The notes beneath the pieces were generated by a model. That model saw nothing but the letters and a program-made list of their open reading frames with translations. It did no database searches and was not told the DNA's origin. Shown here in pieces: positions 1 through 27,942 of a stretch of DNA of 27,942 nucleotides (position 1 is the stretch's first letter; each line of letters opens with the position of its first letter). Location: IMG/VR virus record IMGVR_UViG_3300025138_000261, positions 1 to 27,942 of that record; one strand, written 5' to 3'. The position numbers were made by a program, and so were the translations under genes. The stretch comes from a virus.

Positions 1-87
1 TTTGACTGCGTCCTCGACTGGCCTGTCTTCGTACCAGTTCTTACGTGTTGCGGTGCAGTGAATGATGATTTCGTCGATGTGTCTCAT
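1..87 (-). CDS. N-acetylmuramoyl-L-alanine amidase (T7 lysozyme-like), N-terminal fragment
   Basis: Only the first 29 codons are in the window and the gene runs off the left edge. The visible N-terminus (MRHIDEIIIHCTATR...) is the first beta strand of the Amidase_2/PGRP fold, which cuts the amide bond between MurNAc and L-alanine in peptidoglycan. His10, in the IIIHCTAT context, is the expected first zinc ligand; the other ligands lie outside the window. The ATG at 85-87 is chosen because AAGGAG lies 7 bases upstream. An in-frame ATG at 195 would add 36 residues, but that stretch is better explained by an overlapping gene in another frame. It is the last gene seen in the lysis cluster, after two candidate holins, which fits an endolysin. 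In T7 the homologous enzyme also inhibits the phage RNA polymerase; nothing here tests that. Confidence 0.85.
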   Translation of the reverse strand, partial: MRHIDEIIIHCTATRKNWYEDRPVEDAVK

Positions 88-205
88 CGGCTTGCTCCTT
101 GATGAGTTTTTTTTGTCGCTCGATTTCATCGCGCTGTGTTTCAAGCTCGACAAATTGCCTGTCAATTTCTGTAAGTTGCGGGAAAGCCACGACATTATCG
201 GTCAC
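41..205 (-). CDS. Small coiled-coil protein overlapping the amidase start (54 aa)
   Basis: A 54-codon frame starts with GTG at 203-205, overlapping the TGA of the preceding membrane-protein gene (GTGA), and ends with TAA at 41-43, inside the amidase gene in another frame. The protein starts MTDNVVAFPQLTEIDRQF and continues as a charged heptad-like helix rich in E, R, K and Q. It has no transmembrane segment. It may be a small cytosolic or lysis-linked protein, perhaps helping couple translation to the amidase, but no family is recognised. A purine-rich AAAGGGAA lies immediately before the GTG, closer than an ideal ribosome binding site. The stop-start overlap and the ordered composition favour a real gene over a shadow. 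The roughly 47-base overlap with the amidase frame is the main doubt. Confidence 0.55.
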   Translation of the reverse strand: MTDNVVAFPQLTEIDRQFVELETQRDEIERQKKLIKEQADETHRRNHHSLHRNT

Positions 206-591
206 TTCCCTTTACCAAAGTAGCTAGTTGCGCCACGTATTCCGAACGACGCAGCGACGCAGCACCCCCATGTGTAGATGAACCAATCGGGAGCACGACT
301 AAGAGCCTCGAAACCATCGAAGACTATGGCCTGTCCTCGTGGCCCGCAGAAACAAAGGATCATGGGGATCGACATCAAGCCTAAAATATACTCGTCTTTA
401 AAACTGTGCTTCGATCCTTCAGCCATGATCTTTTCCCAGTTGGCCTCGCTCTGGGCTTGGGACATAAGTATCTGCGACTTGGCCTCTGCCTGCGTCACCC
501 GCATCTTAGTCTCGGCTGCTTTAGTCTCGACTTTGCCTTGCAACCAAGTGCCTGCGAGGTTTGCCAGTGGGCCTATGAGTGCTTGTATCAT
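202..591 (-). CDS. Two-TM membrane protein with helical N-terminus; candidate holin (129 aa)
   Basis: The first 60 residues form a charged amphipathic or coiled-coil helix rich in A, K, E and Q. Two hydrophobic segments follow, at about 68-83 (with SIPMILCF) and 101-119 (with FIYTWGCCVAASFGIRG), and the tail is short and basic (YFGKGK). This layout is common in small inner-membrane proteins encoded beside the endolysin in marine phages, which are often annotated as holins. The ATG at 589-591 overlaps the TGA of the upstream gene (ATGA), so it is translationally coupled. The start of a T7-lysozyme-like amidase lies just downstream. A holin role is inferred from size, membrane segments and position. 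The 66-aa neighbour is an equally good holin candidate, and the two could act as a holin/antiholin or pinholin pair. Confidence 0.75.
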   Translation of the reverse strand: MIQALIGPLANLAGTWLQGKVETKAAETKMRVTQAEAKSQILMSQAQSEANWEKIMAEGSKHSFKDEYILGLMSIPMILCFCGPRGQAIVFDGFEALSRAPDWFIYTWGCCVAASFGIRGATSYFGKGK

Positions 592-788
592 TTTTCATGC
601 GAAAGCCAGACGGCTATCGTCCCTGTCATTGCGCCAGAACATACTGAAATCATTGCGCTTTGTTGCGTGGATAAGTCTTCGAGGCTCATGCCCCATTCTA
701 AAACTCGGCAATACATTACGGCCATCACAGCCATTAATATGCGAGGCAATAGCTTCCACGCTAAGATGCGTTCCATTGCTAAAGTCAC
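588..788 (-). CDS. Small two-TM membrane protein; candidate holin (66 aa)
   Basis: The protein has two hydrophobic stretches, at roughly 11-33 (with ILMAVMAVMYCRVLEWGM) and 44-62 (with AMISVCSGAMTGTIAVWL), joined by a short SLEDLSTQQ loop, and ends in a charged SHEK tail. Its size and topology fit a small phage holin or another lysis-linked membrane protein. The GTG start at 786-788 is preferred over the internal ATG four codons on because AAGGAAGGA lies 8 bases upstream of the GTG, and GTG overlaps the TGA of the preceding gene (GTGA). Its own TGA overlaps the ATG of the next gene. The frame shifted by one base over almost the same interval (595-795) lacks the paired hydrophobic pattern and is a shadow. 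The holin role is inferred. Confidence 0.75.
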   Translation of the reverse strand: MTLAMERILAWKLLPRILMAVMAVMYCRVLEWGMSLEDLSTQQSAMISVCSGAMTGTIAVWLSHEK

Positions 789-1045
789 TTTTCAAATCCT
801 TCCTTCAATCCATCCATGATTTCTTTCACAGTCGGTCGACGTTTGGCGTTCGGAGCGTACCGACACTGGAACTGCTTGGGACATTCTGTGTAGCTGACTG
901 ACGGGTAGTGATATGCCGTCGTACGGTTCGGCCCCAGATATATGCACACCATCTCGCCCGCAATTTTTGCGCGTCGTGCTAACTGGCACGTCACGTATTC
1001 TGGGTTGGCTAACCCAGCGACTAAGGCGGTTGAAAGAAGCCACAT
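785..1045 (-). CDS. Small secreted or membrane-anchored Cys-containing protein (86 aa)
   Basis: The N-terminus (MWLLSTALVAGLANPEYVTC) is hydrophobic and could be a short signal peptide or membrane anchor. Four cysteines (about 20, 34, 55 and 60) are spaced across the rest and could form two disulfides outside the cytoplasm. The C-terminal third is basic and ends in a helix. The ATG at 1043-1045 overlaps the TGA of the 4016-aa gene (ATGA), so it is coupled to it. The upstream G-rich tract encodes the Gly-rich tail of that protein and may double as a ribosome binding site. I do not recognise the family. Its place between the ejection block and the membrane/lysis genes would suit a spanin-like, superinfection-exclusion or other envelope role, but the sequence does not decide between them. 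Confidence 0.75.
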   Translation of the reverse strand: MWLLSTALVAGLANPEYVTCQLARRAKIAGEMVCIYLGPNRTTAYHYPSVSYTECPKQFQCRYAPNAKRRPTVKEIMDGLKEGFEK

Positions 1046-4000
1046 CAGCCAAAGCCACCCCCACCAAATCCGGTGCTGTTAAACTTACTGCTGCCAAATC
1101 CTTTGCTAGAGCCACTACCTTTCTTTCGTCCGGGTTTCTTAGCCTCGCCGCCGACTGCGTCGACGAAGGCTTCACGACCAGCAGGCCCACCATAGATACG
1201 TCCCGCAACGGGGATGCGCCCGTACACGTCACGTAAGGCTGTCCTAATCTTAGAGTTACTGTCTTCCCCACTGACCGCGTTGCTTACGGCTTGGCCTGTG
1301 CCTGCTGCCACGTTAAAGGCCAGTTCGGCTGTGCCTACCTGTGGCCCAAAGATGCCAGACATGGTGCGTACAAAGCCGTACTTGCCGTTGTCTAGCTGCG
1401 CCGACGTGTTGTATAGTAGCTCTCCGATCAGGCCCAAGCCACCAACCGCAAGCAGACCATCTATGTACCATCCGAGTGCAGCGTCTAGGTCATCGCCTTC
1501 TTTGACGCCCAGCACTTTAGCCAGACCCGCTTTGCTTTCTGTAAGAGAACGCTTGCGTGCTTCCGCTGAACGCTCATCTTCACCGCCACGCATCTGCACG
1601 TAGTCTTTCACACCTACGGCCACCATGCCTGCGCCTACGCCCGCTGTGAGCATGTAGAAAGCAGGGGCAGTGTTGCCCTGTTTAAACTCATCCATGATGT
1701 AACCTTGCAGCTTCATCATCAGCATAGGGAACGACTTGAGTTGGAACATCATACCGCCCCAAGGCGTCTGGCCCCACATCGGCAAGTCGTTTGGATTAGG
1801 TGTAAATATACTCTCGTTTGTAAATCGTATCATTGCCATCTGGACTTGCTGTTGGATAGCCTCGTCCTTTGGCAAAGTGTCAATCCTGAACGACCCCTCG
1901 CCTAGAAAGTCGTGGGTCGCGTTCTCACCAGTCAAACCATAGCGTTCGAGATACCTGACCGCAGTCTGATAACTCTTCGTATCAGTTTTGCCTTTTCGTT
2001 TAAGCCTCATCGCTCTGTCGATCTCAGACTTAAAGCTTTCAAACCCGACTAAGCTTGCGACTTCACGCATCGTGTTTGTCCAAGGGGTAAGCAACGTCGC
2101 GTTAAAGAAAGCGTTAGCAAACTTTTGGTTGCCTTCACCAGACATGTGAACCATGCGCTCGTGCATCAGGTTGTCGATCCCGACACCTATGTTTTTGGCG
2201 GCGGCTCGGTAGGACGGGTCAGTAGCATACTTAGCCCAAGTCTTTGCGAAAGCTCGCATGTTTCCACTGCGTATTAAGGGCAGAGAAACGTCTGGAATAG
2301 ATGTGAACATTGTAAAGCCAAGCAATGATACGCTTGTAAATGATTTAAGCGCACGACTAACTTTGTAGCGGGCCTCTTGACCAGTGCCGCCGTCGATTGG
2401 TTTTTTGTTGAGCACATCAAACATCTGCTTCATCTTAACAACAGTGTTGGGTGGTGGCTGGCCGCCTGCAAAGTCAATAGTCGCGTTGACTACTGCTTCA
2501 ACACGCTTTCTAAACTGCACATTGTTGTAAGCGTCTGGCCCAGCCGCTTCAATAATCATACTGATTGCAGCTTGTTTGTTGTTAATGTTTGTCTCAGGAT
2601 CGCCAAGCATCTGACGCAACCTGTTAGCCATGCCTCGTCGTTCGGTTTGTGTCAGGTTTAACCGAGGCACTACTAGATCATCGACCTCGCCCATTCCACT
2701 CTCAGTAGTTACCGCTGTCTTGGGTCTGTACTCAGTGCCAAGAATAGCCATAGCTGCGTCTATAGCGTTGGGAGACTGGGCTATATCAGCGTAAGCATTG
2801 AACGCATGGCCGTTCACACCAAACTGCTCAGTCAGCACGCGCTTACGGATCGTGCGGTCGTAGTATTTAGCCAAGATACCTTGCAAGTCTTGGACAAGAA
2901 ACTCATCCATAAACTCTAAGTCTCCGGGCTTTAGATTTAAAACACGAGATGCGAATGGATCGGACGAAGCCATCTGCAATTCGCCGTCGACTGTGTGGTC
3001 ATTGCCTCTGGTAATCTTGGAAGCAATCGCGGTAGCTGTTTCTCGCAACTCTCCCAATGTCGAACGTGTGTCATCAAAGTCTGGACTGTTTTGTTCACGA
3101 CGTAGAAATTCTACTAAGCTGTCGTGGAAACGCTTAGGATTAGCCAGCATAGCTTCAGTGTCCCAGACTTGCGGAACGTAGTAGTCGCTGCCTAGCTTGC
3201 GTGTGTCACCAACTCTCATGCCAAGTGCCTTCATTTTAGAAAGCTCATCGGCAAATGCTTCGCCAATGTCCAAAGCGACCTGACGCTCGGCTGGGTCTAG
3301 TAATTGCACCGCACCACGTCCACGTCGCAACGCTTGTATGATGCGCTTGTGGCTGGCTGGCTGGCCTACGTCGAGCGCACCCATAGCAAGCCCACGATTG
3401 CGTCTGTTCCAGCGTTGGAAGTTGTTGCCGCTGTCAGGTAACTCGTTCAGCTTGGCTATGATCGGCTGTAGCCTGCGAGCCAACATAGCGTCGTGCTTCT
3501 CAAAAGTACCAACACCGTTCACTGGCTTGATTAAATCGCCAAACCAGTTGGCACCAAGCTGCCGGAACAGGCTAGAGTTTTCGCGGAAGAAGTTTTTAAC
3601 TGTCGACCACTTGGAGATTTTTTCTACGTCGTGCTCTCCAATTCTATGCTGTTTAAATATTTTTTGCGTTACGTCGAGCACAGGCTTTGGCACACCCATC
3701 CGTCGAGCTTCGCGGGCAACGCCTACAAACGCAGGGTTCTCAAGTCTACCGTTCTGCACCATCATCTCTTCGACGACTTGACCTGTCAGCTTCATGTCAC
3801 CGCCAAAGGTTTCGCCCTCAAAGTTCAAAGCGTCTGTGCTTTTGAAGCTATCGGCTGCTTTGACCATCGTAGGATCAAACACAACTTCACCTTCGTCGGT
3901 GACTAGACCGTCGTAGTTCAAATCTTTTAAGAGCTTGTTGAATTTAAGTCGCGCATCGGCTCCGTTTCTGGCTGCGCCCGACTGGACTAACAGACCATTA

Positions 4001-7000
4001 GTGCCATTAGTAAATGCCGAGTACATATTCCGACCGGGCATTGGTTGAGCAAACATTGTCACTGCCGACTGTATACCCTCGGCGTCTAAGATTTTTCTGT
4101 CTGCCATCTCGACTAGAAGATTGCGAACTGTACCGTCACTGTCTTCGCTCAAAGAGTATGTCTGCTTGCTGCTTACGTTTAGTGGTGAGCGTATGCGTGC
4201 AAATACAGGAGAAACCTTTTGGTCTATCGCTATGCCGTTAGTTAAGTCTCGCACAGTGTCCCATGCCAACCGTTCTTTCTTTATTGTGTGAGACAGTAGC
4301 CGTTTTTGGTCAAACGAAAGACTGCTCATGTTAGATAAATCTCTAATACTTTCACGCTGTCTAATGATAGTTTGCATTAAGCCGTTTATCTCGTCGACTT
4401 TTTGAGCGTCTGTTATGCCAGCCATGCTCATGTCAGCTTGAGCTTTTTGATAGACTTGCTCTGCGCTGTAATCTGCGTCTACGTGTTTAGTCGATTTGAG
4501 ATACACCCCATCGCCGTAGTCGCCATTCGTTGTGGCAGTTACGCCTCGCACATTTTGATCTGAAGATACGTTAAAACGTAAGCGGTTTCTTAAATCAGCC
4601 TTCGGTGTCAGACCTACAAAATCTCTAACTGCGTTTTCTAGTCGAGCACTCATAGTCTTGAGCATTGAGTTCGCGTATTTGCCTGCAACGGCTGGGTGAA
4701 CTAACACCTCTCCTTGAGGTGTTGTCACCATGCCTTGTATCGCGTGCTTACCACGCTCGGCCATATCCAGATCAGCCGTAGCTATGCGGCGAACTTCCAT
4801 TTTACGCTCGGCTCTGCTTTTTGGCTGAAACAAAATGCCGTCTAATATTTGCGTGGCCTCATCGACCATTTGTTTCAAGGCGACGAATTGTTCTGGGCTT
4901 GATCCTTTAAGGCTGACCGTTCCATCGTTGTATAAGTCCTTAGTTGTCATGCGAGCAAAGCGATCTTTGAACGCGGCAACTCCCTCAAGTGGCATTTCAG
5001 AGATAGACTTTTGGACAAGCTTGTCTTGAAGCGCAAACGAAAAGTCATACAGCATTTCAAACAATGGCGTGCGGTGCTCTGTGACAGAAGCGTCGTACTC
5101 TTTTTCCATTTCTCTTTGCCCGCCCTCGGACAAAGCCTTGTAATTCTCACGCAAGTCGTTGATCTTGTCGATGTGGTTTGCCATCTCGCGTATTTTTTTG
5201 CGAGCACGGTCGTAAGCTGGGCCTTGGGGCGTAGCAATAGCGTCTTCGTCAAAGTCCATTGCTCTTGGGTCGCCGTTAATTGCAGCCAAGTCTAACTCGT
5301 TTACAGTTACGTCGGCTGGTATTTCGATGCTCTCGTCTTCGAGTAGCTTAATTTTTCTAATCATTTTTATGAATAGGTCGTGTGCAATTCCTTGCTGGGT
5401 TTTGTTTAGCCCTCTCACAGTTATCTCAGAAAACTGCGACACGGCAGGCGTAACTGGGTCAGTCGATATTGGCTCTGGCGTGTCTGGCGATGACGCCCCA
5501 TGCTTGCGACCGTAGTCGAGAATTGCCAAGTTGAAATCAGTAGGATCAGCTTCAGCCATAGCCATTAGCTTTGCTTTTTGGGCTTCGTCTGTTCCTCGTA
5601 ATATAGCTAGTATTGGGCTATCATCTCGCTCAAGCTTGGCAATAAATGACGCGCTGTCAGTCACAACATACGACACCCGTTTCTTTACTTCGTTGATCGA
5701 CGACGCCAAGCCGTTTAAGTTTTCTGCGTCTTCAGAAGCACTCGCGTTGTGAATAGCGTTTGCGTGTTCTTCCTCAGTCACAGCTTTTGCTGCACGAGTT
5801 TTTGCTTCATCCATGATTGCGTCTTCGCTTACTTTGCGCCAGTCGACGCCTCGGTTGGTAAGCTGTTGCACGATCTCGGAGACTGCGCGTGCGGTCTGTA
5901 GTTCTTCACGATTTTGTTTTGCGTTCTGCTGTCTAAACTTAGCACTCTTAGGAGATACCGTCTCGACGTATGATGCGCCTGTAAACTCGTCGATAGCTAT
6001 GTGCTTTCGCTGGGTGTGTGGCATCATGCGTTTGTATATACGTGTGTATTCACCAATGCCTCGTTGCATTGCGACTTGTAAGTCTGTCGACAAAGCGTGC
6101 AGGCGGTCTACGATTGCTTCGTCTAATCCTTCGTAAGCTGATTTGCTTTGTGTCAGCATCTTTTCGTACATGTCTTGTACGTCGCGCTGTGTATCCGTGG
6201 ACATCTCTGAAGCGATAGCGTTCTGCTGCGCTACGTCAGTTTGGTTTTTGCCAGATAAAGCGTCAGCAAATTTGTGGTCAGCTTCTTCAGCACGAAGTGC
6301 TTTTAGGAACCCGTGGATTTTGTACTGGGCCTGCATGATGTCTTCGAGAATTGTTTTGTCGTTAGCGTAGTCGAGAGCCATAATCCGGGTCGAGCCGCTG
6401 TCAGGTCTACCCGGAATTTTAGCGTGCTTTGGCTGGCCCTTTTTGCCGCCGTACTCTCCGTAAATAGACTTGGCTATTTTCTCCAACTCGACTGCAAGTG
6501 CAAAGCTATCACCCATACCTTTTGGGTTTGCCATCTTGGCTATTTGCAAGTCGCGTATGCGCTCGTCAAGTGCAACCATTTGCTTTGCTGCAAATTGCGC
6601 CATAGGCATTTCGCCTTGGCCCATCTGGCTTTGGCTTTCGATCCCATGTTCTTCGCCCATCTTTTCAAGGTGGCCGAACTTTGACACGCCTCTTTCTGGC
6701 GTTCCAGTCAGCGGGTCGATCTCTTCGTTTGGCAAATATTTTGAAAAAATTTCGGCTAAGTCAGGGTCGACTTTAAAAGTTTCACGACCGAGCATCCAAT
6801 TCATTATGGCGTGACCAAAACGACTAACCTTCTCGAAGACTTGCATCATTGGCGAGCCGGGTACTCGAAGTGCATCTGTCTGCAAGACGTAGCCTAAAAA
6901 CTGGTTGGCAAAAAATTCTTGGGGATTGCTTGCTGCATTTGGCACTAGCTCAGTGTCGACTAAACCTCGGCTCAATGCGTCAAAGTCTAGCTCGCCACCG

Positions 7001-10000
7001 CCGCGCATTGCATTGTCATCATAATATTTTTCCAGTGACGACCAGAACTTTTGCTTGTCACCTTCGTCGAGTAAGTTCTCGTAAATCCAATGGCCCATCT
7101 CGTGAACCAATTCCATAGACATAGGCGTTGGTCTTTGCGCTTTGTCAGAACCAACAACAATTTTAATTTCGTTAGTGTTTGGATCAAACGAAGCTTCGTC
7201 ACCTGTCGCCTTGGCAAGCAATGGTGCGCGTCCACCGTTGTACGCAGCCACACGCTCAAGGAAATCTACGGCTGTTTGCACCTCACGGTCAGGGTAGCCA
7301 TCAAACATAGAGCGCAACTTGTTAGCTGATACGCCCAGATTAGTTGACGGTTGCTTGATGCCGTTAGGTACGTTTGATTTAAGAACTCTGGAAGCTGCCG
7401 CACGAAGCGTTGCAAACCTCTTTAAACCTTTGAGGGACTTGATCTCACCTTGCCAGTCGACAGTTTCAATCCGATCAATAAAGTTGACAAGATCATCAAT
7501 AGTTCGCATTGGCTCGCCGTGACCTTGGAAAAACAATCGGTCTTGTTCAGAAAGAACTAAGTCTTTACTGCGTATTGTTTCAAAGTCGCTTGCTCTGTTC
7601 TCTCGTTTGCGTTGGCTCTGCACATTTTGAGTAACCCCACGCTTGCCCTTTTCTACGTCTAGGCCAGCCAGCTTGTTACCGTTCTGATCGACGAAGGTAT
7701 CCTCAACAGTCATGGGGAAAAAGGTTTCCCGATCTGTCGCACGGCTGCCACCAGTCTGCACATGCCCAATGACGTATGGTACGTCTGCGCTTTTACCTAA
7801 CAAATCGCCAATTACTTGAGGGTCGCCGTTTTTCTTTCTTCCGATCTTACGGACTTCACCTATCTTCGCTAAAGAACCTTTGTCTAAAAATTGGATAGCG
7901 AGACTACGGCCATCTGGCAGTTCTTCAAAGTCGTTAGTCGAATGTGTAAGCACATTGTTCGGGTCGCTTTTAGCGGGCGGGCTAATCTCTGGGGTGTCGC
8001 TGCCCTTTGGTGCTACAACAGTTTTCTCGTTTTTATACGTTTCTGTTTTCTTTAAATTAGTCTGAGTGTGAGGCAGACCTTTAGCGTTTTGGTTTACGGC
8101 AAAACGATTGCCGCCCGACTTAGCCTGCATGTCCTCAATTTTGTTTTTAAAGATTTGAGCCAACGACTTTTTTAAAGCGGTGCCAGACTTAAACTTTAGC
8201 TTCATCCCATCAGGGTGCATGATGGAAGCTACGCCGTTCTCATCTTCAGTGTATCGACCTAAAACCTGACCATCTAATTCAACGCGAATTGACTGGTCTG
8301 CCTTTGATCTAAAGTATTTTATGTCGTTGTTTAAGTCGACTTCAATACCTGAAGGAGTTGTAGCAATGATTGGTGTGTTTTTAACACCCAAAGGTTTGAC
8401 GTTTGGGGTGTCAGCCGAAGCCAGCGTTTGCACTTTAGCTTGTAAGTCGGCTACTGCCGCAATCAATTCTTCGCGGGACAGTGCGCCAGACTTAGCCTTT
8501 TCAGCCAAAGCGTTGTAGTCTGCCACGGCAGCTTTTTTGGATGTCGCTTGTTCGTTTATAGCGTCCACTTGTGTTTCGATCTGGGCTTTCTGATCAACAT
8601 TAGGCTCGCCATCAAAGTAAGCTGCGTACCCTAAGTCTGGGTCAGCTTCACCATCAGACGTAGCTCTGGACAAATGCTCTAAGTATGCAGCGTTGTTGAT
8701 AGTAGCTTCTTCATCTATTTCACCAAGACGTTCTTCGCCTGCTGCTACGCTGTTCTCATAGTCGAAATAACCAGCGGCCACCTCTTCTTCGTATTTCTTT
8801 TTGGCGTATGCTACTTTTCTCGCTTTAGTATATGCGAATTTGGCTAATCGTTTAGCGGCTTCAACATCTATCGGGGTGCCTTTGCCAAGGTGGTACTGAA
8901 CCAACTTGTTCTGTTGCTTTCGCATGGTAATTAAAAACTCTAACAAGTTGGTGTCTTCTTTGCTTAAAGACTTGCCGATAGCTTTTAGGTTGTTTTCTTG
9001 TTGCACGAGAGCGTGATGTCTGGCTGTAACTTCAATCGCAGTCTTTTTCAAAATAGTTCTGCCGAAGTCTTCTTTAGCGGCTGCGACTTTGTCGCCTAGC
9101 ATTTCTTGCTCAGTCGACGTTCGCAATTTTGATCGTTCGTTCTTGAGGCCACCTATTACAGTCTGGCTGTCTGAGTTCGTAATGAACGCAATGTTTGTTA
9201 CGTTTGTTCTTGCGTCATTCTCTGCTGCGAACAAAGCGTCCTCGACTTCAGGCAGTGTAAGCTTGGCCCCACCTTTTTCTAAACTAAAGGTTTTAGTTTT
9301 ATTTTTCTTTAAATTAGCAATCCCACTTTTTAACTTTTCAATAAGCGTGATGTGGTACTCTAGGACTTCTAGCCGCTGTTTGTTGCGAGCAGCCTTCTCG
9401 TCGTTTCGCACGACTTGTTGGGTGCCGCCTTTAATGCGGGCTTCGTAGCTTTCGTTCAGAGCGTTCTCTATCGCGTCTACGCGATGAGCTACGCCGTCTG
9501 AGCCACGCTTGTAACCTGAACGTATAAGTTTTCCTGTAAACCCTCTTGCGCCAACGGTTCGCAGAATAGATTGTATCTTGCCGTTTTCTTCATAGACGCC
9601 ACGGCCATCCCTGATTTGGCTGCGGCCCATAAAGTCGGCAAGGCCAGCGTCGGTTGTTACACTAACGTCAGTCGTTAGTCGCATACCTCTGGTGCGGATT
9701 TCTATCGTGCCGTTCTTCTTACGATTAAGGGTAGAAACCTCGTCTTCAGCACTGTTGATGAGGTCGCCCATGTTAAGCTGGCTGCCTTTTTTCAACACAA
9801 CATTTTTGCCGCTGGTTCTTTTGTATCTGTCTCGGACTTCTTTAAGTCTGGCTAGGTTCTCGTAGTGCGCGACGATCAGTTTTTTTTCCGCGTCAGTAGG
9901 TGCTTTGCCTTGATTTAAGTTGTACCGAAATGTCTCAAACTCTACAGGTCTACCGTCTTGGCCGATGACGGTCATCACCCCTTCCTCGCGTGTAAACTCA

Positions 10001-13095: not shown

Positions 13096-13098
13096 GTC

Positions 13099-16960: not shown

Positions 16961-16969
16961 TGATTACTC

Positions 16970-17392
16970 CTAGCCAAAGTTGCGGCCAAAACCCATGCGT
17001 TGGTTCATCATACCACGAGACATAGGGCCAGTCGCCTGCTGAGACGCAGGCAAAGAATTAGGCGCAAACCCGCGTTCGACACCGCCGCCTTGGGCTGCCA
17101 TTCCATAGTCTACGTCGTCCATTACCATTTGTCCGGGCATAGGTTGCTCGCCCGTTGCGGCAACGTCTGACGCCATCTCTGGGCTAACTTCTGTCGTTTG
17201 CTCCATCTCACCATATGGCATTGCGCCTGCGTCCACGCCAACTTCGCCGCCCATAAAACGAAAACCAAAACCAGCACCGGCTTCGCCTGTGTTCTTTTTT
17301 TGGCGTGCAACAAACTGCTGTTGATTTTCAGGAGTATCCACGTCTAAGCCTGTGCCAGACATATACATTTGTCCAAAGCTCATCTCATTCAT
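16970..17392 (-). CDS. Met/Gly-rich protein of unknown function (140 aa)
   Basis: This low-complexity protein is rich in Gly, Met, Gln and acidic residues, starting MNEMSFGQMYMSGTG and ending RGMMNQRMGFGRNFG. It has no predicted membrane segment, no catalytic motif and few hydrophobic core residues, so it is probably largely disordered. TAGGA about 8 bases upstream supports the ATG at 17392, and only 9 bases separate it from the preceding gene. It sits just before the gp14/gp15/gp16-like block, so it may be a minor virion component or an assembly helper for the core. I do not recognise a family and infer no biochemical role. Codon use and absence of GANTC match its neighbours. Confidence 0.7.
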   Translation of the reverse strand: MNEMSFGQMYMSGTGLDVDTPENQQQFVARQKKNTGEAGAGFGFRFMGGEVGVDAGAMPYGEMEQTTEVSPEMASDVAATGEQPMPGQMVMDDVDYGMAAQGGGVERGFAPNSLPASQQATGPMSRGMMNQRMGFGRNFG

Positions 17393-17401
17393 TCTTGTTT
17401 C

Positions 17402-18931: not shown

Positions 18932-18932
18932 C

Positions 18933-19385
18933 TTATAAATCCTTCTGGAAAATGTAGCCTGTTTGGACATAGCCGTTTCTTTTGGCAAACTTGTCCCAAC
19001 GCTCGTCTACACCGTTGTTACACGGCATGAACAACATGACTTTTGCTTCCATGTATCGCGCCCAGTGCTCAAATTTATCCATAAATCGGGAAGCAACTTC
19101 AGCACCACGATGCAATGGATGAATATACATACATTGCTCTATCGCCAGTTTTGTCGTGCCGAAGTAATGAAACGACAGACTGGCTAAAAACCAACCAATT
19201 ATCTCGTCATCTTTAGTTGCTACGAGAGCCAGCCTGTCATCGTCTGTGACGTATTGGGAAAGCATGATAACAACTTTTTCTTCATCATAATCAAACTTGC
19301 TGAACAAACCTTCAGCGTGCATCATCTTTCCCATTTCAGCTAACTGTTTTATCTCTTCATACTTGACCAATCTAATTTTTATCAT
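18933..19385 (-). CDS. GNAT-family N-acetyltransferase (150 aa)
   Basis: Size and strand order fit the Gcn5-related N-acetyltransferase fold, which moves an acetyl group from acetyl-CoA to an amine. The N-terminal strand is MIKIRLVKYEE. Central strands include RLALVATKDDEIIGWFLA (about 51-68). Motif A reads QCMYIHPLHRGAEVASRF (84-101), where the RGAEVA loop (93-98) would hold the pyrophosphate of acetyl-CoA; the second Gly of the usual RGxGxG is replaced. The C-terminus has the typical FAKRNGYVQTGYIF strand turn. The substrate is unknown. The ATG at 19383-19385 is favoured, although no ribosome binding site is clear and a GTG three codons upstream, right after the preceding stop, is possible. 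An enzyme inside a virion block is unusual and may modify a virion or host protein. Confidence 0.88.
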   Translation of the reverse strand: MIKIRLVKYEEIKQLAEMGKMMHAEGLFSKFDYDEEKVVIMLSQYVTDDDRLALVATKDDEIIGWFLASLSFHYFGTTKLAIEQCMYIHPLHRGAEVASRFMDKFEHWARYMEAKVMLFMPCNNGVDERWDKFAKRNGYVQTGYIFQKDL

Positions 19386-19394
19386 TGATTGCAC

Positions 19395-20714
19395 TCACAC
19401 AATTATCATGTTTCCAAAGCCTTTACGCCTTGATGCCCCCTGGAGAGCACGCGCAAAAGCACCTTGATCAGATGGATTGCTTGCTCCGATGTAGCGATAC
19501 TCTCCTGTGTCTTTGTCACGAACTAACTCTTTGTATGAAACACCTTGCGGCAATGGGATTACCGGCATTGGTGTTACTTGGTTTTGTGACGGTAGCGTAG
19601 CAGATAAGTTAGCTTGCTCGTTCTGTGGAAACTCTTGCGTAAAATCAGACAATGGTCGAATGTCCGGCATTACAGTAGACGTTGTATTAGCAATGTTTAA
19701 AGGCTGGAAAGACGGCTTAACAGGTGCCAGCATCTGACCAAGGCCAGCACCAGAAACCGCGTACTTTAATCCCTTTTCGTTGAAGTTACCAATAGCATCC
19801 ATCGCTGCGGAACCTAAGTTTTTTAAAGTCGGGTCTACGTTGCCATCGTTGTAATTATCTATTGTGGGCGTCTCGATTTCAGTGGCGGTCTTGTCTGTTT
19901 TTTGTAACTCTTTAAGCTGCGATCTGTTGTCGAGATAATTACCAACGCCATAGCCAATGCCAGCCCCCGCGCCTGTCGCAAGTGCAGTCTTGGTGTCTTG
20001 ACCCAAGAGGTATTTAGACGTGGCTGCGGTGCCAAGTCCTGTTAGTGCAGCCTGACCAAACTTACTATTGCCAATGTAGTCTGCGCCCTTGATGCCCATC
20101 TTTATCAGGTCTTCGTACCACCTAAACTCTTGTGCGCCTGTATCGGGGTTGTAGCTGCCTTCGGGCGAGCCTGCGACGTACTGAGCAGGGTTTGCCCCCA
20201 TGTCTGCCAAAGTTTGCATTGCGGCTAGTGCAAGGCCGGGGTTTGCTTGAGCGGCTTTTTTCGGAATAACAATGTCGCCAGTCTCCGTGTACGACAACGT
20301 GTCGTCGCCGCCGCGCATAGCCTTGTCGTGCATCCTGTCGTTGCGCTCTAAGTCTTCGCGGTCAAAGCTCTCTGGTCTGCGGGGTGCGCCTGCTGTCGCT
20401 ATTTTGTCTCGCGCATAATCTCTGTCTTGATTGTAGCCTGCTGCGTTTTCTGTGTCCGCCAAAGACATGTCGTTCGTGTAGTAGTTGTTGACGCGGTAGG
20501 GTTCCATCCTTGCGTCTGCGCGATAGCCTTGGGGCATAGCGGCAGCGGGGTTTTGCCCTAAGTACGTCAACGCTATGTTGTTATTGAAGCGACGCTTATT
20601 CTCTATCATCCGTGTCTCAGGCTCAAGAGGTGGCGGCAAGGGCTGGCCTAACGCTCGGCTTAGGCCACGCATATCAATGCTTAGGTTTGGTTGAGGCCGA
20701 TTATAGTTAGCCAT
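19395..20714 (-). CDS. Probable virion protein with TETGDIVIPKK motif, unknown function (439 aa)
   Basis: The N-terminal 130 residues are polar, Pro/Asn/Arg-rich and probably flexible. At about 137-153 comes TLSYTETGDIVIPKKA, followed by a helix (PGLALAAMQTLADMGANP) and YVAGSPEGSYNPDTG. I have the impression of similar segments in structural proteins of marine podoviruses, but no named domain fits. A Gly/Ala-rich stretch (about 230-261) resembles a membrane-active or packing segment, and the C-terminus is basic (ASRRKGFGNMIIV). AAGGAG lies 8 bases upstream of the ATG at 20714, and 12 bases separate it from the fibre gene. The position between fibre and ejection proteins suggests a tail-associated or ejected protein; the role is unproven. 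Confidence 0.75.
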   Translation of the reverse strand: MANYNRPQPNLSIDMRGLSRALGQPLPPPLEPETRMIENKRRFNNNIALTYLGQNPAAAMPQGYRADARMEPYRVNNYYTNDMSLADTENAAGYNQDRDYARDKIATAGAPRRPESFDREDLERNDRMHDKAMRGGDDTLSYTETGDIVIPKKAAQANPGLALAAMQTLADMGANPAQYVAGSPEGSYNPDTGAQEFRWYEDLIKMGIKGADYIGNSKFGQAALTGLGTAATSKYLLGQDTKTALATGAGAGIGYGVGNYLDNRSQLKELQKTDKTATEIETPTIDNYNDGNVDPTLKNLGSAAMDAIGNFNEKGLKYAVSGAGLGQMLAPVKPSFQPLNIANTTSTVMPDIRPLSDFTQEFPQNEQANLSATLPSQNQVTPMPVIPLPQGVSYKELVRDKDTGEYRYIGASNPSDQGAFARALQGASRRKGFGNMIIV

Positions 20715-20726: not shown

Positions 20727-22559
20727 TTACACGTTGACCGTTGCTGCTGCGACTACGACTTCAAGGTTTTGCCCCGAAGAGTTATTACTCACGACTAATT
20801 CTAACCTCTTAGATGCAACCGTGCCATTTACCTCAATGACCGTTGCTATGTTGTCCGACTGCAAAGTGCTTGTCGCAGAAAAGGTGCTGCCTACAGGAGT
20901 GCCGTCTACCGATAGTTGAAGCGTAGCTGTGCCGGAACTGAGCTTATACGCAATGCCATCAATGCGGATTGTCTGCTTCCAGATACGCGACAGATAGTAA
21001 GTCTTATTACTGATGCTCGCGCTACTGTCCTCGAAGGTTGAGAAGAACGGGATCGACACAGTCGAGAAAGTTTCGGGAAGCTGCGTGACTGGTAAGTTGC
21101 CCGAACTGTCTAGCGTTGCGACGCCGTTGGCTGCGCCCATAAAAGTCTTCGGGACAACCGAACTAAAGTCAATATCGCCATATTGCAGACCTGTCCCTGT
21201 GCCGTTTACGCGCACAAACTGGTTTGCGTTTGTCTGCACGAACGTAGGCAAAGAGCTTTCTGGGGATGTCTCTAAAAATTGGGTGCCGTCATAAAACTTT
21301 AGGATCGCAGGGTTAAGTGACGTGTCCAGCCACAAGTCGCCCGTCGAAACACTTGAGGGCGTAGTCGACTGAGAAACAAGATTGGCTTTGTTCGTAAGCG
21401 TTGTTGCCAGTGCTGAGACTTTTGCCTGCGGGATTTCGTTGTCTGCGACTGCAAGCTTGGCATAGTTGATGTAGCCAGATGCGTTTGTATATTCGTCTTC
21501 AAACATTAATCCTGCCACAGTTTTGAGACTGGTGTTTTCGACAGTGAGCACTGTGACTTTGTCGCCAGCAGTTAGCTGGTTCGACGTGTCGACGAAGGTC
21601 AGTGTTCCTGATGCCGAAGACGGAATATAGTCTGCGCTGCCACCCGGCTCTTGCAGAATACCGTTACGCCAGACCAAAAGTTTTTCGTCGGCAGTGTGAG
21701 CAAAAGCGACTACGGTTGTCGTAGTTAATATTTCATTGTCAGTGCGACGAAAGTTTGTAACTGCCTGAGAGCGAACAGAGTAAATAGTAACCTTGTCGCC
21801 CAGAGCCACGGCAGGGCTGGCGGCTGCTAGGGTGACTGTATTTGCACTTGTGCTGAACGTGTATTGAGCGGCAGTGCTTGCAGTCGTGGTGTCATGCAAG
21901 AGCAGCCCGTTGCGGTAGACGACAATGTTCTCGGTGCTGGCGTTGAACGTGTACGAAAGCACGCTGTTAGGACTACCGACTGCACCTGTTGCAGTAGCGT
22001 TCGATCCACCGCCGCCTGAGATTGTGACGGTTGGCGCGGCTGTGTATCCAGAACCAGCGTTCGTAAGAGTAATCGCATTGACTGCACCGCCAGAAATAGT
22101 CGCGGTGGCGGTAGCTGTTGTGCCAGTCGTTTCCTGCGGGGCCGAAATGGTGACGGTTGGGGCCGTCGAATAACCAGACCCTGCGCCCGTTACAGTAATG
22201 GCCGAGATCGCGCCACCGACCAGCATGTCCCTTCTGTCAAAAAAGAATGGCCCTTCGACGTTGCCGACCGACGCGCCTGCGGTGCCTCGAATAGACGCTG
22301 ATGTGGCGATGGTAGACCAGCCTGTCTCTGCGTCTGAGTATTGGCCTACGCGGTATTGCAGGCCAAGTGAGCCGTCGAGCCGCATAGAAATAGGCCCGTC
22401 AAAAACACCTTGCTCGTTGAAGATTGTGGCTAGAAGCTCAGAGAGTGTTTTATCGCCAAGTTCTGCCGTATTGATGTAACGTATGACGTTCTCAAAGTCT
22501 GTATGGATGTTCCCACTGTTGACGTAATTCTGTGGGTGCTGCTGTCTTAGTCGTGCCAT
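20727..22559 (-). CDS. Tail fibre / receptor-binding protein (610 aa)
   Basis: The N-terminal 60 residues (with [20 protein letters not shown] and [16 protein letters not shown]) look like the virion-attachment part of marine podovirus fibres. The shaft holds two copies of a GSGYxxAPTVTIS beta module (about 115-139 and 157-181). Two copies of a second module follow (about 201-260 and 283-350), each with a [10 protein letters not shown]- or [10 protein letters not shown]-type strand and ending GDKVTIYSV or [10 protein letters not shown] segment with [17 protein letters not shown] (about 395-411) is typical of phage fibres. The Ser/Thr-rich beta C-terminus (about 525-610) is the likely receptor-binding end. 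AGGAG is 8 bases before the ATG and overlaps the previous stop region. No depolymerase or chaperone-cleavage motif is seen. The host receptor cannot be inferred. Confidence 0.85.
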
Positions 22560-22562
22560 TGT

Positions 22563-24053
22563 TTAGCTCCTAACGGTCACGGCGAAGCCGATGATTTTCA
22601 ACAGCCCCTTGCCTCTAGTGGTAAAACGAAACTGTACGCCTTTGTACCTGTGCTCAAACTTGCGCTCGTATTGCCTATTGAGCGGAACGTCTGGAAACTT
22701 GTTCTCTATGCCATCGCCCTCAATGAGAAACTGCATTGCTGAAAGGTATCGACCTCGTTCGTCGAAGGCTTCAATTTGTAACTCGCCTTTTCCTGTGGCT
22801 TGAAGAATAAAACTATAGCTTTCTTTGGTGTCGTTGATTGCGCCTTGCCATAGGATCGGCGTATCGACGACCATCTCAGGACTATCTGTCACTAAGTCTT
22901 CAATGTTCGAGCGGTTCCATATGCCGCCGGGGGTTCCGATCAAAGAAACTCCACCAAGCTGCCTGCCACATGATGCGTTTAGAAATTCTCCTGATGACCA
23001 CTTGCTTTCGCCGCCCTTCATTGGGTTAAGAGAAAGCGTTAGTCGTTTTGTAATCTGCTCAGAGTAAGGAAAGAAAATATGATACTGCCCTTCGTCTTGA
23101 TCATAGAAAGCGTTAATTGTTTCGTGATCGTCGACGTAGGTCAAAAGTTCACGGTATATCAAATCAATCTTGTTGCTCATCGGAACAGTGTAAAGAGAAA
23201 GCCCGTTTGTTTCTGAGCGACGAAGCGAGTGAACACCATCGCGTGAGCAGAACATTAAGTCTGATCCAGCGTTCTTAATTGTGTTGTGGCTTATGCAGCC
23301 GATATTGACGTTCACCTTGTCAACGATTTGCCATTGAGTGAAGTCAGGGTGAATGTCGTAAAGCAAAGTTTTATCGTTTGTAAAAACAGCGAGGCGTGTG
23401 TTCTCAAATACGCCAAGACCCTTAATCTCGTCAGCAGTGCCAATAATATTAGAAACGTCTATGTCTGCTCCCTTTAAGACTGAAGTTGAGTTTACGTCTT
23501 CGTCGGCTGTAAAAATATCTTCTTGGTCAACGCGGCTAAAGTCTATGACTGTGCGTTTTCCGGGCATACCCGCTATTGCTAGTCGGCGTTGTATCGACAC
23601 AATGTATGCTGGTCGTGGATCACTGTTCGCAGTAATTTCATTCCATTTAAATCCGTCGTACTGATACATACTGTAGTCGCGACTGCCAAAAATAATCTTG
23701 TTGTTAAAAGTTGTAGACGTAACAGCGGAAGACTTGGGGTACACCTCTTGTTTGATATGGCTTCGCTCGGATTTTAAAGTTGTCCCACCGCCGTCAATCT
23801 GCGCCCAGACCGCCAAGTCGCGCCCGAAAAAGTTTACGTGCTTGATGTACTTGTTGCTCTCTGTGCGATTTACTGCGCCGGGGTCGCGCACCATCGTTCC
23901 ACGCCAGTCGGCGTAGCCATCTTGAATACGAACCATGTGCTGTTTTTTGCCAGTGTCGAGCGCACCAATGTCACGACTTGCGTCAATGCCTTGGAAGTCT
24001 TCATAGGGGTAAATTTTAACTTTAACACCAGACGGAGCGTGAGTTGTAGACAA
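22563..24053 (-). CDS. Tail nozzle / packaged-DNA stabilisation-like protein (496 aa)
   Basis: The protein is almost entirely beta-strand, with repeated strand-turn units such as NNKIIFGSRDYSMYQYDGFKW and ENTRLAVFTNDKTLLYDI. This suggests a beta-propeller like the nozzle proteins of short-tailed phages (P22 gp10, about 470 aa; T7 gp12, about 790 aa). The length is close to P22 gp10. It follows the adaptor gene, as expected for a nozzle that closes the connector and carries the fibre encoded next. The start is TTG at 24051-24053: GGGGAG lies 7 bases upstream, the preceding TAG is 3 bases away, and the next Met is about 40 codons in. The family is inferred from architecture and position; no signature motif was read. 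Confidence 0.8.
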   Translation of the reverse strand: MSTTHAPSGVKVKIYPYEDFQGIDASRDIGALDTGKKQHMVRIQDGYADWRGTMVRDPGAVNRTESNKYIKHVNFFGRDLAVWAQIDGGGTTLKSERSHIKQEVYPKSSAVTSTTFNNKIIFGSRDYSMYQYDGFKWNEITANSDPRPAYIVSIQRRLAIAGMPGKRTVIDFSRVDQEDIFTADEDVNSTSVLKGADIDVSNIIGTADEIKGLGVFENTRLAVFTNDKTLLYDIHPDFTQWQIVDKVNVNIGCISHNTIKNAGSDLMFCSRDGVHSLRRSETNGLSLYTVPMSNKIDLIYRELLTYVDDHETINAFYDQDEGQYHIFFPYSEQITKRLTLSLNPMKGGESKWSSGEFLNASCGRQLGGVSLIGTPGGIWNRSNIEDLVTDSPEMVVDTPILWQGAINDTKESYSFILQATGKGELQIEAFDERGRYLSAMQFLIEGDGIENKFPDVPLNRQYERKFEHRYKGVQFRFTTRGKGLLKIIGFAVTVRS

Positions 24054-24056
24054 TCT

Positions 24057-24686
24057 CTATCTCCCCGTGTTGTAAGATTGCGTGCCTGTCGGCTTTTGGG
24101 ATACGTCCCACGGGCTGACTTCGATTGCGCCACTGCCATACTTGCGGTGATACAGAACACGGTTCATCATCTTGAAATACATCGGGCCATAGGCTTCGAT
24201 CTTGTTCGACTGCTGTTGTACGGCGTAGTGATAAAGCAGGCCGTTTACCATTATGTTGTCTGGGATCGGCAAGATTTCTGAAGGGTGCGTGTAGTAGTTT
24301 ATTTCGGGGTTGTCCCAATAGGGGTGGCCCCGCAAGTCTTCGATAACGAGATTTGCAAATTCGACGAACATCATCATCACTTCGCCGTCGACTGTGCCGG
24401 GGTGCATGTCTCCGTATCGACGAAGAGATTGCATGACCAAAGCCTCAAGGTTTGAGTATGGCGAGTTGAGATGTGGGTTGTTGGCAGAAAACCGATTGCG
24501 CTTCTCTCGTGTTTTTGCGTCGTCGCGCCAAGTCTTGTCGACTGCATCAATAACAGTAGCGTTAATGTCAGTGCGTAAATCTACTGCGCCTACAACAGAC
24601 GTACCATTATCATCCGTGTGGCGAGGATCGTCGTTAGATGGAAGACTGCCTGTGATAGTCGCGCTGTCGTAAGTCCGATATGGCAT
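24057..24686 (-). CDS. Head-tail connector / adaptor protein (tail tubular A-like) (209 aa)
   Basis: After a polar N-terminal extension (about 1-85) the protein becomes helical: SNLEALVMQSLRRYG, then MMMFVEFANLVIEDLRGHPYW, then a helix with VNGLLYHYAVQQQSNKIEAYGPMYFKMMNRVLYHR. Length and helix-rich core fit the ring-forming adaptors (T7 gp11, P22 gp4, gp6-like connectors) that bind under the portal. It precedes the nozzle-like gene, as in T7 and P22. ATG at 24684-24686 overlaps the TAA of the previous gene (TAATG), with AGAGGA just upstream. The C-terminal 25 residues are polar and may contact the nozzle. Homology to a specific adaptor family cannot be proved by eye. Confidence 0.8.
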   Translation of the reverse strand: MPYRTYDSATITGSLPSNDDPRHTDDNGTSVVGAVDLRTDINATVIDAVDKTWRDDAKTREKRNRFSANNPHLNSPYSNLEALVMQSLRRYGDMHPGTVDGEVMMMFVEFANLVIEDLRGHPYWDNPEINYYTHPSEILPIPDNIMVNGLLYHYAVQQQSNKIEAYGPMYFKMMNRVLYHRKYGSGAIEVSPWDVSQKPTGTQSYNTGR

Positions 24687-24967: not shown

Positions 24968-24980
24968 GAGTTCTCCACAT

Positions 24981-25010
24981 GAAAAGGGGCTGCAATAGCT
25001 TACAGCCCCT
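24981..25010 (-). terminator. Rho-independent terminator after the major capsid gene
   Basis: On the minus strand the transcript reads AGGGGCTG (25003-25010), a 10-base loop, then CAGCCCCT (24985-24992) and TTTC. That is an 8-bp perfect, GC-rich stem ending in a short T run. It lies 34 bases downstream of the capsid stop and before the 93-aa gene. T7 likewise places a leaky terminator just after its capsid gene, so that capsid mRNA is more abundant than the tail mRNA. The short T run suggests partial read-through. Confidence 0.75.
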
Positions 25011-25044
25011 AGTCTACAAAGTTTTATGGAACGGTTCGTCCTCG

Positions 25045-26220
25045 TTAGGTGACGGCGTTCCAGTTCTTAACGCGGTGGTGTACTTTCGACTGCAACATTT
25101 CTAAGCCGCACTCGCTTTGGTACATGTGCTTGACGCCGTCAAAGTCTGGTGCCTGCACGTCGCGGATAAGCTGAGTGTCACGACCCTGCATGTAGCGATA
25201 CTTCAGTTCGCTCATGTCGAGAATGATCATCTCTTTATCCATAGTCGGCACCTGACGGAACATCGGGTGCATGTAGACAAGCAGATCGCCTGCGTAGGTG
25301 GTGTACCTAGAAAGCGATACGCCATAAGCGTTGTCAATCGCGGTCGGCTGCCAACGGTTCTTGCCAATCTCCATTAGGTTAGAGATTACGCGAGCACCAC
25401 AGAACGCTACCTTTTCAGAGCCGCCATATGCGAAGATGTTTTCGATCAAGAGACGATCAAATTCTTTCTCCGTGATGACGTTCGACGAAGCACCATAAGA
25501 TGCAGCGTCGGTCACAGTTGTGATGCTGTTACGCAACCCACCTGTGAAACGAAGGGGCGATGCAGTTGAGCCGTTTACCTCTGCACGCTTGCCGAAAAAC
25601 ATGGCGCGTTCAATGTCGCTCATGTGCATCTTGAGTGCTTTGGTTAGCTGCTCTTGCTCTTTATCACCTGTACGCAAGTAAGTGTTCTGCAAAGTTCCTG
25701 TGACTTGCACAGCAGTTTTGAAGATTTGCGTAAAGTTAAAATCAAGAGTTGGATCAAAGCTGATAGCGATGGGGGCTGACCCGCCTTCAGTATCTGCAAA
25801 CCCACCGATGATGAGGTTGGCATCATCAGCAATTTGGTGCGACGTACCGCCGATGTTGCGCTCGACTGCGATGGCGTTGCTGCTTGGAGCAGCGGTTGCA
25901 CGCATGACTTCGCCAGTATCGACGTTGACGATGATGGTTCCCGGCACGACAAACTGCTGGTCGTCGGCAGCATCTACAGTAATAGACGCAGTCGAAGTCG
26001 ATGCTACAGCACCGTTGATTTGCAGTTTGCGATCTGGAAGTTCGTCGCGGTAGTGGTTGTACTTAGGGTCATCCGTGCTTTCGGAACCAGTCATCGACAA
26101 CAATGCCTGTAGCGGTGCGCTGCCATTTGGTTCAAGAAGCGTAAATAATTCGCGGTAATTGGTGGGACGGAAGTCAGTCGTGAACTGGCCTGTCCCGCGT
26201 AGTCCTTGTATAGCGGTCAT
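25045..26220 (-). CDS. Major capsid protein, SU10/DUF5309-like HK97 fold (391 aa)
   Basis: The N-terminal pattern NYRELFTLLEPNGSAPLQALLS (about 21-42) followed by YNHYRDELPD resembles the start of the SU10-like major capsid family (DUF5309). The C-terminal LKYRYMQGRDTQLIRDVQAP and LEMLQSKVHHRVKNW fit the strand that closes the axial domain in the same family. The beta-rich insertion (about 70-155) contains DDQQFVVPGTIIVNVDTGEVM. Length is usual for such capsids. AGGAG 8 bases before the ATG at 26220 is a strong site. The gene follows a scaffold-like gene, sits alone between two hairpins, and precedes connector genes, all as expected. No protease or cleavage site is evident. I am confident of the capsid role and fairly confident of the family. 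Confidence 0.88.
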   Translation of the reverse strand: MTAIQGLRGTGQFTTDFRPTNYRELFTLLEPNGSAPLQALLSMTGSESTDDPKYNHYRDELPDRKLQINGAVASTSTASITVDAADDQQFVVPGTIIVNVDTGEVMRATAAPSSNAIAVERNIGGTSHQIADDANLIIGGFADTEGGSAPIAISFDPTLDFNFTQIFKTAVQVTGTLQNTYLRTGDKEQEQLTKALKMHMSDIERAMFFGKRAEVNGSTASPLRFTGGLRNSITTVTDAASYGASSNVITEKEFDRLLIENIFAYGGSEKVAFCGARVISNLMEIGKNRWQPTAIDNAYGVSLSRYTTYAGDLLVYMHPMFRQVPTMDKEMIILDMSELKYRYMQGRDTQLIRDVQAPDFDGVKHMYQSECGLEMLQSKVHHRVKNWNAVT

Positions 26221-26395: not shown

Positions 26396-27442
26396 TTATG
26401 CAAGGCCACGCTTTTGCATGGCTTGTGCTGCAACTGCATCCATAAACTGCTGGTCAGCATTAGGGGCCGATACTGTGGCGGCACCGCCAGACGGCATTGG
26501 GTTGACCGCGCCAGTAAAAGCTTGGCGGCGTTCGTTGAGTGCGCGTAGTCTTTCCATCTCCGGCTGGCTGCGATTGGCGGCAAAGTCTTGCCCGATCTTC
26601 ATAGTCAGTTCGGGGTCGAGAAAGTCGTCCTCTGTGTATCCACGGCCATAAGCAAAGTTGAAGAAGTCTGCGTCGGCGTCGTCGGGGAAGCCAAGAGACT
26701 GCTGCATCTGGTTGAGGTTGTTGACGGCCTGCTGCTTGTAGGCGTCGTTTGCGCGTGAGTTTGCTGTTTGCAAGGCTTGCCCTGCATCAGTTGATACGCC
26801 TTGCGCCTGCTGTATTAAACCCTGCATCATCTGACGCATTTCGTTGTTCTCGCCCTGTAGCTGCTGGATAAGCTGCATCCCTTGGCGATACATCGGCGGC
26901 AGCTTTACAGCATTTGCGTCTTCCCAAGCCGACATTTCGTCGTCGGCTTCCATAGCTGCGCGGTTGCCATCAGGTCGGTCAGGGGTTGGGTCGCGCTGGT
27001 CGCCCAGCGTCGGGTTCTTGGTGTAGGCTTCAATGCTGGCCTGTAAGAACTGGGCCATGTCGTCGCCGGATACGTCGTGGCCTGCCTGCTTGGCGTTCGC
27101 CATGACGTTTTCGATGATCTGAAGCGCGGGTTCCATCGGCTTGTAGCGAGTGGCGTTCTTATGATTGAGGTCTTTATAGCGGCTACTCATGCCTGCGACT
27201 TGCGAAGCTGACATAGTCTGCTTGCGGCCATCGCCCATATCGACGTTGATAAAGGCTTCCTCTTGTTGCTTGTCGCCTTCTGTCTCAGGGGCCAGCTTTT
27301 CTTGAGCTTGCTCACTGATAGTCGGGGGCGTCTCTGGTGGTGGGCCTGTAGGTACAGGGGCGGGTTGCCCATCTGCGGCTGGTGCTGCACCTAGCTGCTG
27401 TGCTGCAAGCTGTGCAATCATTTGGTCGTCTGCTTCTGCCAT
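26396..27442 (-). CDS. Capsid scaffolding-like protein (348 aa)
   Basis: The N-terminus is Ala/Pro/Gln/Glu-rich and disordered (about 10-60, with PVPTGPPPETPPTISEQ). The middle is helical and Gln/Met-rich (MYRQGMQLIQQLQGENNEMRQMMQGLIQQAQG, 184-215) and likely forms a coiled coil. The C-terminus has further helices and ends AVAAQAMQKRGLA. An acidic, helical, weakly folded protein directly upstream of the major capsid gene is the usual picture of a podovirus scaffold, which shapes the procapsid and then leaves. GGAAAGGA lies 6-7 bases before the ATG at 27442. No protease domain is visible. The assignment relies on position and composition, since scaffolds diverge quickly. Confidence 0.82.
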   Translation of the reverse strand: MAEADDQMIAQLAAQQLGAAPAADGQPAPVPTGPPPETPPTISEQAQEKLAPETEGDKQQEEAFINVDMGDGRKQTMSASQVAGMSSRYKDLNHKNATRYKPMEPALQIIENVMANAKQAGHDVSGDDMAQFLQASIEAYTKNPTLGDQRDPTPDRPDGNRAAMEADDEMSAWEDANAVKLPPMYRQGMQLIQQLQGENNEMRQMMQGLIQQAQGVSTDAGQALQTANSRANDAYKQQAVNNLNQMQQSLGFPDDADADFFNFAYGRGYTEDDFLDPELTMKIGQDFAANRSQPEMERLRALNERRQAFTGAVNPMPSGGAATVSAPNADQQFMDAVAAQAMQKRGLA

Positions 27443-27472
27443 GTTCTTTTCCTTTCCAGCCGTAGCGGGATG

Positions 27473-27757
27473 TTATTTGGAAGCCGTAGCGTCCATTTTT
27501 AACTCTCCACGATTGGCAGCGTCCATCAAGATATTGTTGTTTAAGATTTGGCTGACTGCGGTGGGGAGATCGACAAACTTCCTCGCGGCCCACATGGAGC
27601 CGCGACGAAAATGCACCTCTTCTATGGACATGGCTGGGCCATCACATAGCTGATATGCTGCTTGGGTTATGGATTTTTCCATTTCTTCTTGGATTACTTG
27701 CCAGCCCTTCGACTTGAGCATGGCGTCCACTGCGACTTGTTTTTGTTTTGGTGTCAT
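27473..27757 (-). CDS. Small protein between membrane protein and scaffold genes (94 aa)
   Basis: The start is set at the ATG at 27755-27757 (MTPKQKQVAVDAMLKSKGWQ), which overlaps the TGA of the preceding gene (ATGA). The open frame continues 20 codons upstream, but that part lies over the membrane protein's coding sequence and looks like a shadow. The protein is helical, with a WQVIQEEMEKSITQAAYQL helix, a short SIEEVHFRRGSMWAARKFVDLP stretch and a polar tail. Phages often have a small alpha-helical protein between portal and scaffold genes; its role is generally unknown. The ribosome binding site is weak (TTAGG), so translation is probably coupled to the upstream gene. No catalytic motif is seen. 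Confidence 0.7.
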   Translation of the reverse strand: MTPKQKQVAVDAMLKSKGWQVIQEEMEKSITQAAYQLCDGPAMSIEEVHFRRGSMWAARKFVDLPTAVSQILNNNILMDAANRGELKMDATASK

Positions 27758-27942
27758 TTGCCTAACGTCACATATGCGCCAACAGACAAGATGCCGAGGA
27801 TGCAGACGATGCACCAACGAACTACTGTCTTGAGAGCGGTTGATTTGATGTCGCGCCAGCCGTCGATGAGTTGACGCAAGTCGCGCACGTCGTTAGCGGC
27901 TGTGTCGTCAGACAAGCCGATACGTGTGAGAGCTTCCCTTGC
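27754..27942 (-). CDS. Small one-TM membrane protein, DUF6127-like, C-terminal fragment
   Basis: Only the last 62 codons are in the window; the start lies beyond the right edge. The visible part begins with AREALTRIGLSDDTAANDVR, then an amphipathic helix with LRQLIDGWRDIKSTALKTVV, then one transmembrane segment (about residues 42-60 of the fragment), and ends LGK. The order ...RIGL-[DS]D..A..D.R[ED]LR.L.D.WRD followed by one TM helix matches my memory of the DUF6127 family found in alphaproteobacterial prophages. Function is unknown. The TGA overlaps the ATG of the 94-aa gene. It probably follows the portal gene, which is not in the window. Confidence 0.75.
   Translation of the reverse strand, partial: AREALTRIGLSDDTAANDVRDLRQLIDGWRDIKSTALKTVVRWCIVCILGILSVGAYVTLGK

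Follow-up and report, generated by a model that had tools for sequence, protein, structure and literature searches.

Which pressure empties a phage genome of GANTC, the target shared by CcrM of Alphaproteobacteria and by HinfI-type restriction enzymes, and does that loss stand alone? The question arises from a 27.9-kb virus fragment (IMG/VR record IMGVR_UViG_3300025138_000261; all 27,942 bp were analyzed and are called the window here), in which a program count of zero confirms the original prediction that the site is absent throughout. GANTC is one among dozens of restriction-enzyme targets that have been erased, lineage by lineage, in CRP-810-type phages: over the whole record (positions 1 to 27942), of the 64 six-base palindromes 43 are missing along with it, as are many degenerate Type II sites, and the further claim of an avoidance confined to GANTC is thereby overturned.

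A CRP-810-type fragment without GANTC

Judged from its sequence, the record is a fragment of a CRP-810-type phage. Its capsid protein matches that of Roseobacter phage CRP-810 at 62.9% over 99%, its structural genes follow the same order on the minus strand, and the two phages are alike in having a very large internal virion gene and depleted six-base palindromes; CRP-810, however, retains GANTC (105 sites). The Prim-Pol, TerL, portal, cobS/cobT, and integrase genes of the CRP-810 family fall beyond the 27.9-kb fragment.

All of the features described here lie on the minus strand. The major capsid protein (25045..26220; 391 aa, SU10_MCP family, Pfam PF17236, E=1.8e-41) serves as the kinship marker, and immediately upstream of its gene is one for a 348-aa protein (26396..27442) that is syntenic with CRP-810 gp46, gave no confident match in family searches, and is putatively scaffold-like, by position only. 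A tail-fibre-like protein and two adjoining structural genes (20727..24686), taken with the capsid gene, share 80-96% identity with two GANTC-free relatives (G002 and G004), and the internal virion and structural genes (13173..20714) are 30-46% identical to the same two. The latter stretch includes a GNAT acetyltransferase (18933..19394; Pfam PF00583), which occurs in other CRP-810-type phages as well (PMC11288001). The remaining 4016-aa open reading frame (ORF; 1045..13095), 12 kb without any GANTC, returned no Pfam or PHROG match and, by synteny with CRP-810 gp35, is a candidate giant internal virion protein, the CRP-810 counterpart being about half as long. We take it to resemble the giant multi-domain virion proteins that are injected with the DNA, like "polyvalent" proteins; its translation contains an HEMGH (HExxH-like) motif.

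These differences in identity reflect a mosaic joint near 20.7 kb. To the right of the joint (20727-27442), identity to G002 and G004 is mostly 75-96%, and to its left (1045-20714) it is the 30-46% given above; when a donor of the divergent left part was sought, the sole match was the window's own near-identical contig. Both mosaic parts are free of GANTC (0 versus 48 expected in 1-20726 and 0 versus 14 in 20727-27942).

The absence of GANTC is real and far from chance. Independent bases predict 105.8 copies in the whole window, dinucleotide shuffling 87.9 (sd 8.5), a maximal-order Markov model 59.9, and codon-preserving shuffles, in which synonymous codons are permuted and every protein is kept, 59.4 (sd 6.3; lowest value in 60 shuffles, 47). 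The earlier figure of about 100 expected sites therefore holds as a compositional expectation (106) but not as a codon-preserving one (about 60), from which the observed zero is still far removed; the codon-preserving shuffle had been proposed as a check, and its outcome, 0 versus 59 (sd 6, minimum 47), upholds the avoidance. GATC is as frequent as had been described, with 81 copies against 75-76 expected. The loss of GANTC reflects selection and works via codon choice, again as predicted: serine codons that follow Asp or Glu comprise 42 AGY and no TCN, against 176 AGY and 342 TCN in other places. The codon analysis covers 13 ORFs, with about 1.9 kb of the window outside them; much of this remainder, bases 1-1044 included, is probably coding, which leaves little DNA for the original claim that non-coding sequence avoids the site as well.

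An origin in chance, base composition, or faulty assembly has next to no probability. Zero lies well below the shuffle minimum of 47, independent contigs of the window's clade share the absence, and a second contig (L001) reproduces the window across the mosaic joint at near-perfect identity.

Sites missing alongside GANTC

Codon-preserving shuffles of the window leave a mean of 1.1 and a maximum of 5 six-base palindromes unrepresented, compared with the 43 that are absent from it, and the summed count of contiguous six-base palindromes is 135, compared with 391 in the shuffles; spaced palindromes occur at about the expected frequency. Across the enzyme specificities of REBASE, as held in Biopython, the palindromic ones have a median observed/expected ratio of 0.48 in the window, 54 of 154 being at zero, and the asymmetric ones a median of 0.96, such that the asymmetric class is not avoided. 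Some patterns are over-represented, namely AAGNCTT (39 versus 16.4, z 5.9), GTCGAC (23 versus 15), and AANNNTT (249 versus 187).

Depletion of contiguous hexamer palindromes as a class is what a general avoidance of short palindromes, structural or recombinational and with no tie to restriction, would produce, but such an avoidance is extremely improbable here. The window retains good numbers of several palindromes (TTGCAA, CTATAG, TAGCTA, TTTAAA, AAATTT, and GTCGAC). Seven of the eight hexamer palindromes for which no exact enzyme is known are still present, and a known enzyme exists for 42 of the 43 that are absent (Fisher p=0.001). Moreover, the borders of the purge coincide with those of degenerate enzyme sites (observed/expected in the window): CCWGG is at 2/40 versus 18/20 for CCSGG, GGWCC at 0/31 versus 43/40 for GGSCC, RGCGCY at 0/32 versus 130/125 for GCGC, and RGATCY at 0/17 versus 81/75 for GATC; CYCGRG (0/13), GRGCYC, and GKGCMC are all at zero, yet GWGCWC is at 14/14. 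The purge reaches non-palindromic members of such sites too, 5 of 27 known degenerate sites having zero copies when these members alone are counted, although it is not universal among them, about 20 of the 27 occurring at close to the expected frequency. Just 4 of 261 enzyme-less patterns are at zero, three of which contain GGWCC or GANTC and the fourth of which is the BsmI site GAATGC; of 1,751 further asymmetric hexamer pairs for which 8 or more copies are expected, just 21 have at most one. The retention of enzyme-less palindromes, combined with the exactness of the degenerate borders, refutes general palindrome avoidance as the main cause, and sister lineages with different lists of missing sites likewise speak against it. 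The avoided set tracks enzyme specificities, not palindromes generally.

Avoidance of recognition sites by phages is established, orthodox Type II sites being eliminated and the asymmetric class not (Rusinov et al. 2018, PMC6286503), and the window likewise lacks orthodox Type II sites and leaves the asymmetric class unavoided. In the same survey, temperate phages showed such elimination less frequently (PMC6286503), whereas the family considered here, most members of which bear an integrase, purges dozens of specificities together, with lists that are specific to lineages. IncP-1 broad-host-range plasmids also avoid six-base palindromes, more so with wider host range (Shaw et al. 2023, PMC10359461); this avoidance is common to both systems, one a plasmid and the other a virus. 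Other phages lack many hexamers as well: in 28 kb, T7 lacks 24 of the 64, N4 32, HMO-2011 33, and DSS3phi2 38, compared with 43 for the window and up to 47 for its relatives, so the degree seen here is extreme but not unique. GATC is at zero or nearly so in T7, N4, and HMO-2011, and GANTC is lacking in none of the four. The first 28 kb of DSS3phi2, an N4-like roseophage (L143), combine their 38 absent hexamers with unavoided GANTC and GATC.

A family-wide purge with lineage-specific lists

The CRP-810-type phages are a marine family that infects the Roseobacter group and in which most members carry an integrase. The paper on this family covers 251 metagenome genomes, 217 of them with an integrase, gives a tRNA-Thr gene as the CRP-810 integration site, and makes no mention of restriction sites (PMC11288001).

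The purge is seen in all 16 relatives that were read at length. In these, 24 to 42 hexamer palindromes are absent, against 0 to 5 in shuffles, and hexamer palindromes stand at 0.28-0.62 of expectation (27 to 47 are absent when the stretches are cut to at most 27.9 kb), with TTGCAA and TAGCTA again near expectation. CCWGG is purged in most lineages, and other sites come and go. In the window's clade, GANTC is absent or almost so, repeatedly in independent contigs, and GATC is normal; in the nearest sister lineages (L014-L020), GATC is at zero, with GANTC at about half of its compositional expectation in L014-L018 and scarce in L019-L020. Elsewhere in the family, G014 and G015 (L102-L105) have no GATC, CCGG, GGCC, GCGC, or CGCG over 32-35 kb, G028 is without GANTC, CCGG, GCGC, and CGCG, and G042 has no GATC and a single GANTC. 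On the capsid tree, the strict GANTC-free state requires at least 8 changes, against an average of 19 with shuffled labels, and the GATC-free state 6 against 15, from which it follows that both states are inherited but turning over. Four-fold sites are saturated between the window and the sister clade (identity 0.33), and the GATC/GANTC switch therefore cannot be dated.

Elimination that is complete and that switches between lineages would also be expected if a phage-borne nuclease cut host DNA at GANTC and the phage protected itself by keeping its own genome site-free, and early genes do lie outside the fragment. We nonetheless consider such self-protection very improbable: among the orthogroups of the 16 relatives (several of which are partial genomes), a search for genes tracking the GANTC-free or the GATC-free state found none that does so across independent clades, and accounting for all of the missing sites would require dozens of nucleases.

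Restriction enzymes, CcrM, and the host

We propose that the sites have very probably been erased to escape the bacterial Type II restriction enzymes met by each lineage. For a phage entering a cell with a restriction system, every unmethylated site would be a cleavage risk; variants that lose a site, often via a single synonymous change, would survive more, until zero sites remained, and once the pressure was over, the site class would drift again to its neutral level. Because different lineages would meet different enzymes, their purge lists would differ. We infer that the agents are host restriction enzymes and that the one acting on GANTC is a HinfI-like enzyme, not CcrM itself; the two recognize the same site, and no gene of either kind was seen in the window.

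In 296 genomes from the family of the Poseidonocella host (see below), an EcoRII-like nuclease domain occurs in 18, consistent with most lineages having lost CCWGG. A DpnII-type nuclease family (GATC) was found in none of the 296, nor were HaeII-type (RGCGCY) or SinI-type (GGWCC) nucleases, for which the controls were silent too. These null results count against restriction, as do two further observations: the family is largely integrase-bearing, elimination being rarer in temperate phages according to the survey, and the HindIII, SalI, and DraI sites are unavoided in the window.

A phage methyltransferase was considered as the cause and seems unlikely, the searched families being rare in the relatives. 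PF01555 is found in 1 of 50 relatives' records, and PF02086 is missing from all 29 records searched for it; PF00145 turned up once in 29 records, in a bacterial genome and thus in no phage record. The 10 proteins scanned from the window, itself a fragment, gave no methyltransferase match. The sole N6/N4 methyltransferase among the 50 relatives (L084; G042:10243-11436) lies in a genome without GATC and with almost no GANTC.

CcrM could act in another way, with its methylated GANTC being avoided because un- or half-methylated sites would interfere with phage gene regulation or draw a methyl-sensing nuclease. To gauge this, GANTC was counted in a small, hand-picked panel of 18 reference sequences (11 alphaproteobacterial phages or prophages and 7 others). 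Mild depletion appears in 9 of the 11 (observed/expected, 0.26-0.71); the other two are DSS3phi2 (1.16) and Agrobacterium phage 7-7-1 (0.91). The 7 remaining sequences show no such depletion (0.87-1.32; p=0.002 between the two sets, uncorrected for kinship). Outside the window's clade, the mildly depleted alphaproteobacterial phages are L127, L129, L134, L140-L142, L145, and L146. Such depletion fits a weak CcrM-linked effect, and the kin of the window's phage infect Roseobacter-group hosts; as an explanation of the complete loss, however, CcrM is unlikely. Not one of the 11 has eliminated GANTC, CRP-810 keeps 105 sites, elimination is patchy within the family, other sites have been eliminated just as sharply, and the 43 missing hexamers are left unaccounted for. 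To our knowledge, CcrM has no partner nuclease. There are, then, two GANTC signals, a mild depletion in alphaproteobacterial phages and a complete loss that is lineage-specific. The panel of reference sequences revealed only the first of these; of the two activities attributed to the host, methylating or cutting GANTC, a cutting enzyme remains the likely agent, whereas the absence does not serve as a mark of CcrM.

Avoidance of restriction sites is a known phenomenon, of which the present phages are an extreme and apparently unreported case. As far as the literature searched shows, what is new is the family-wide extent, the exactness of the degenerate borders, the turnover between lineages, and the occurrence in a mostly integrase-bearing family, the last of which runs counter to the reported rule for temperate phages. 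It is conceivable, though we advance it tentatively, that each genome of the family is a record of the Type II enzymes its lineage met, precise to the degenerate bases, and that changes in the GATC-free and GANTC-free states between sister clades mark shifts of host or host population. If so, the purge lists would offer a way to read the restriction repertoires of uncultured ocean bacteria from no more than phage sequence, lysogeny-capable phages included.

An alphaproteobacterial host for the window's phage is likely, as originally proposed, mainly by kinship: the capsid is 63% identical to that of CRP-810, and a related prophage resides in Poseidonocella sp. HB161398. The mild depletion in the panel lends the link between GANTC and Alphaproteobacteria some support; the complete absence of GANTC, on which the proposal had been founded, is no marker of one. 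A prophage search of the 296 genomes of the Poseidonocella host's family recovered a single case, the HB161398 prophage already found. One further CRP-810-type contig (L135) is binned in a metagenome-assembled genome of Candidatus Neomarinimicrobiota, where it is probably misplaced.
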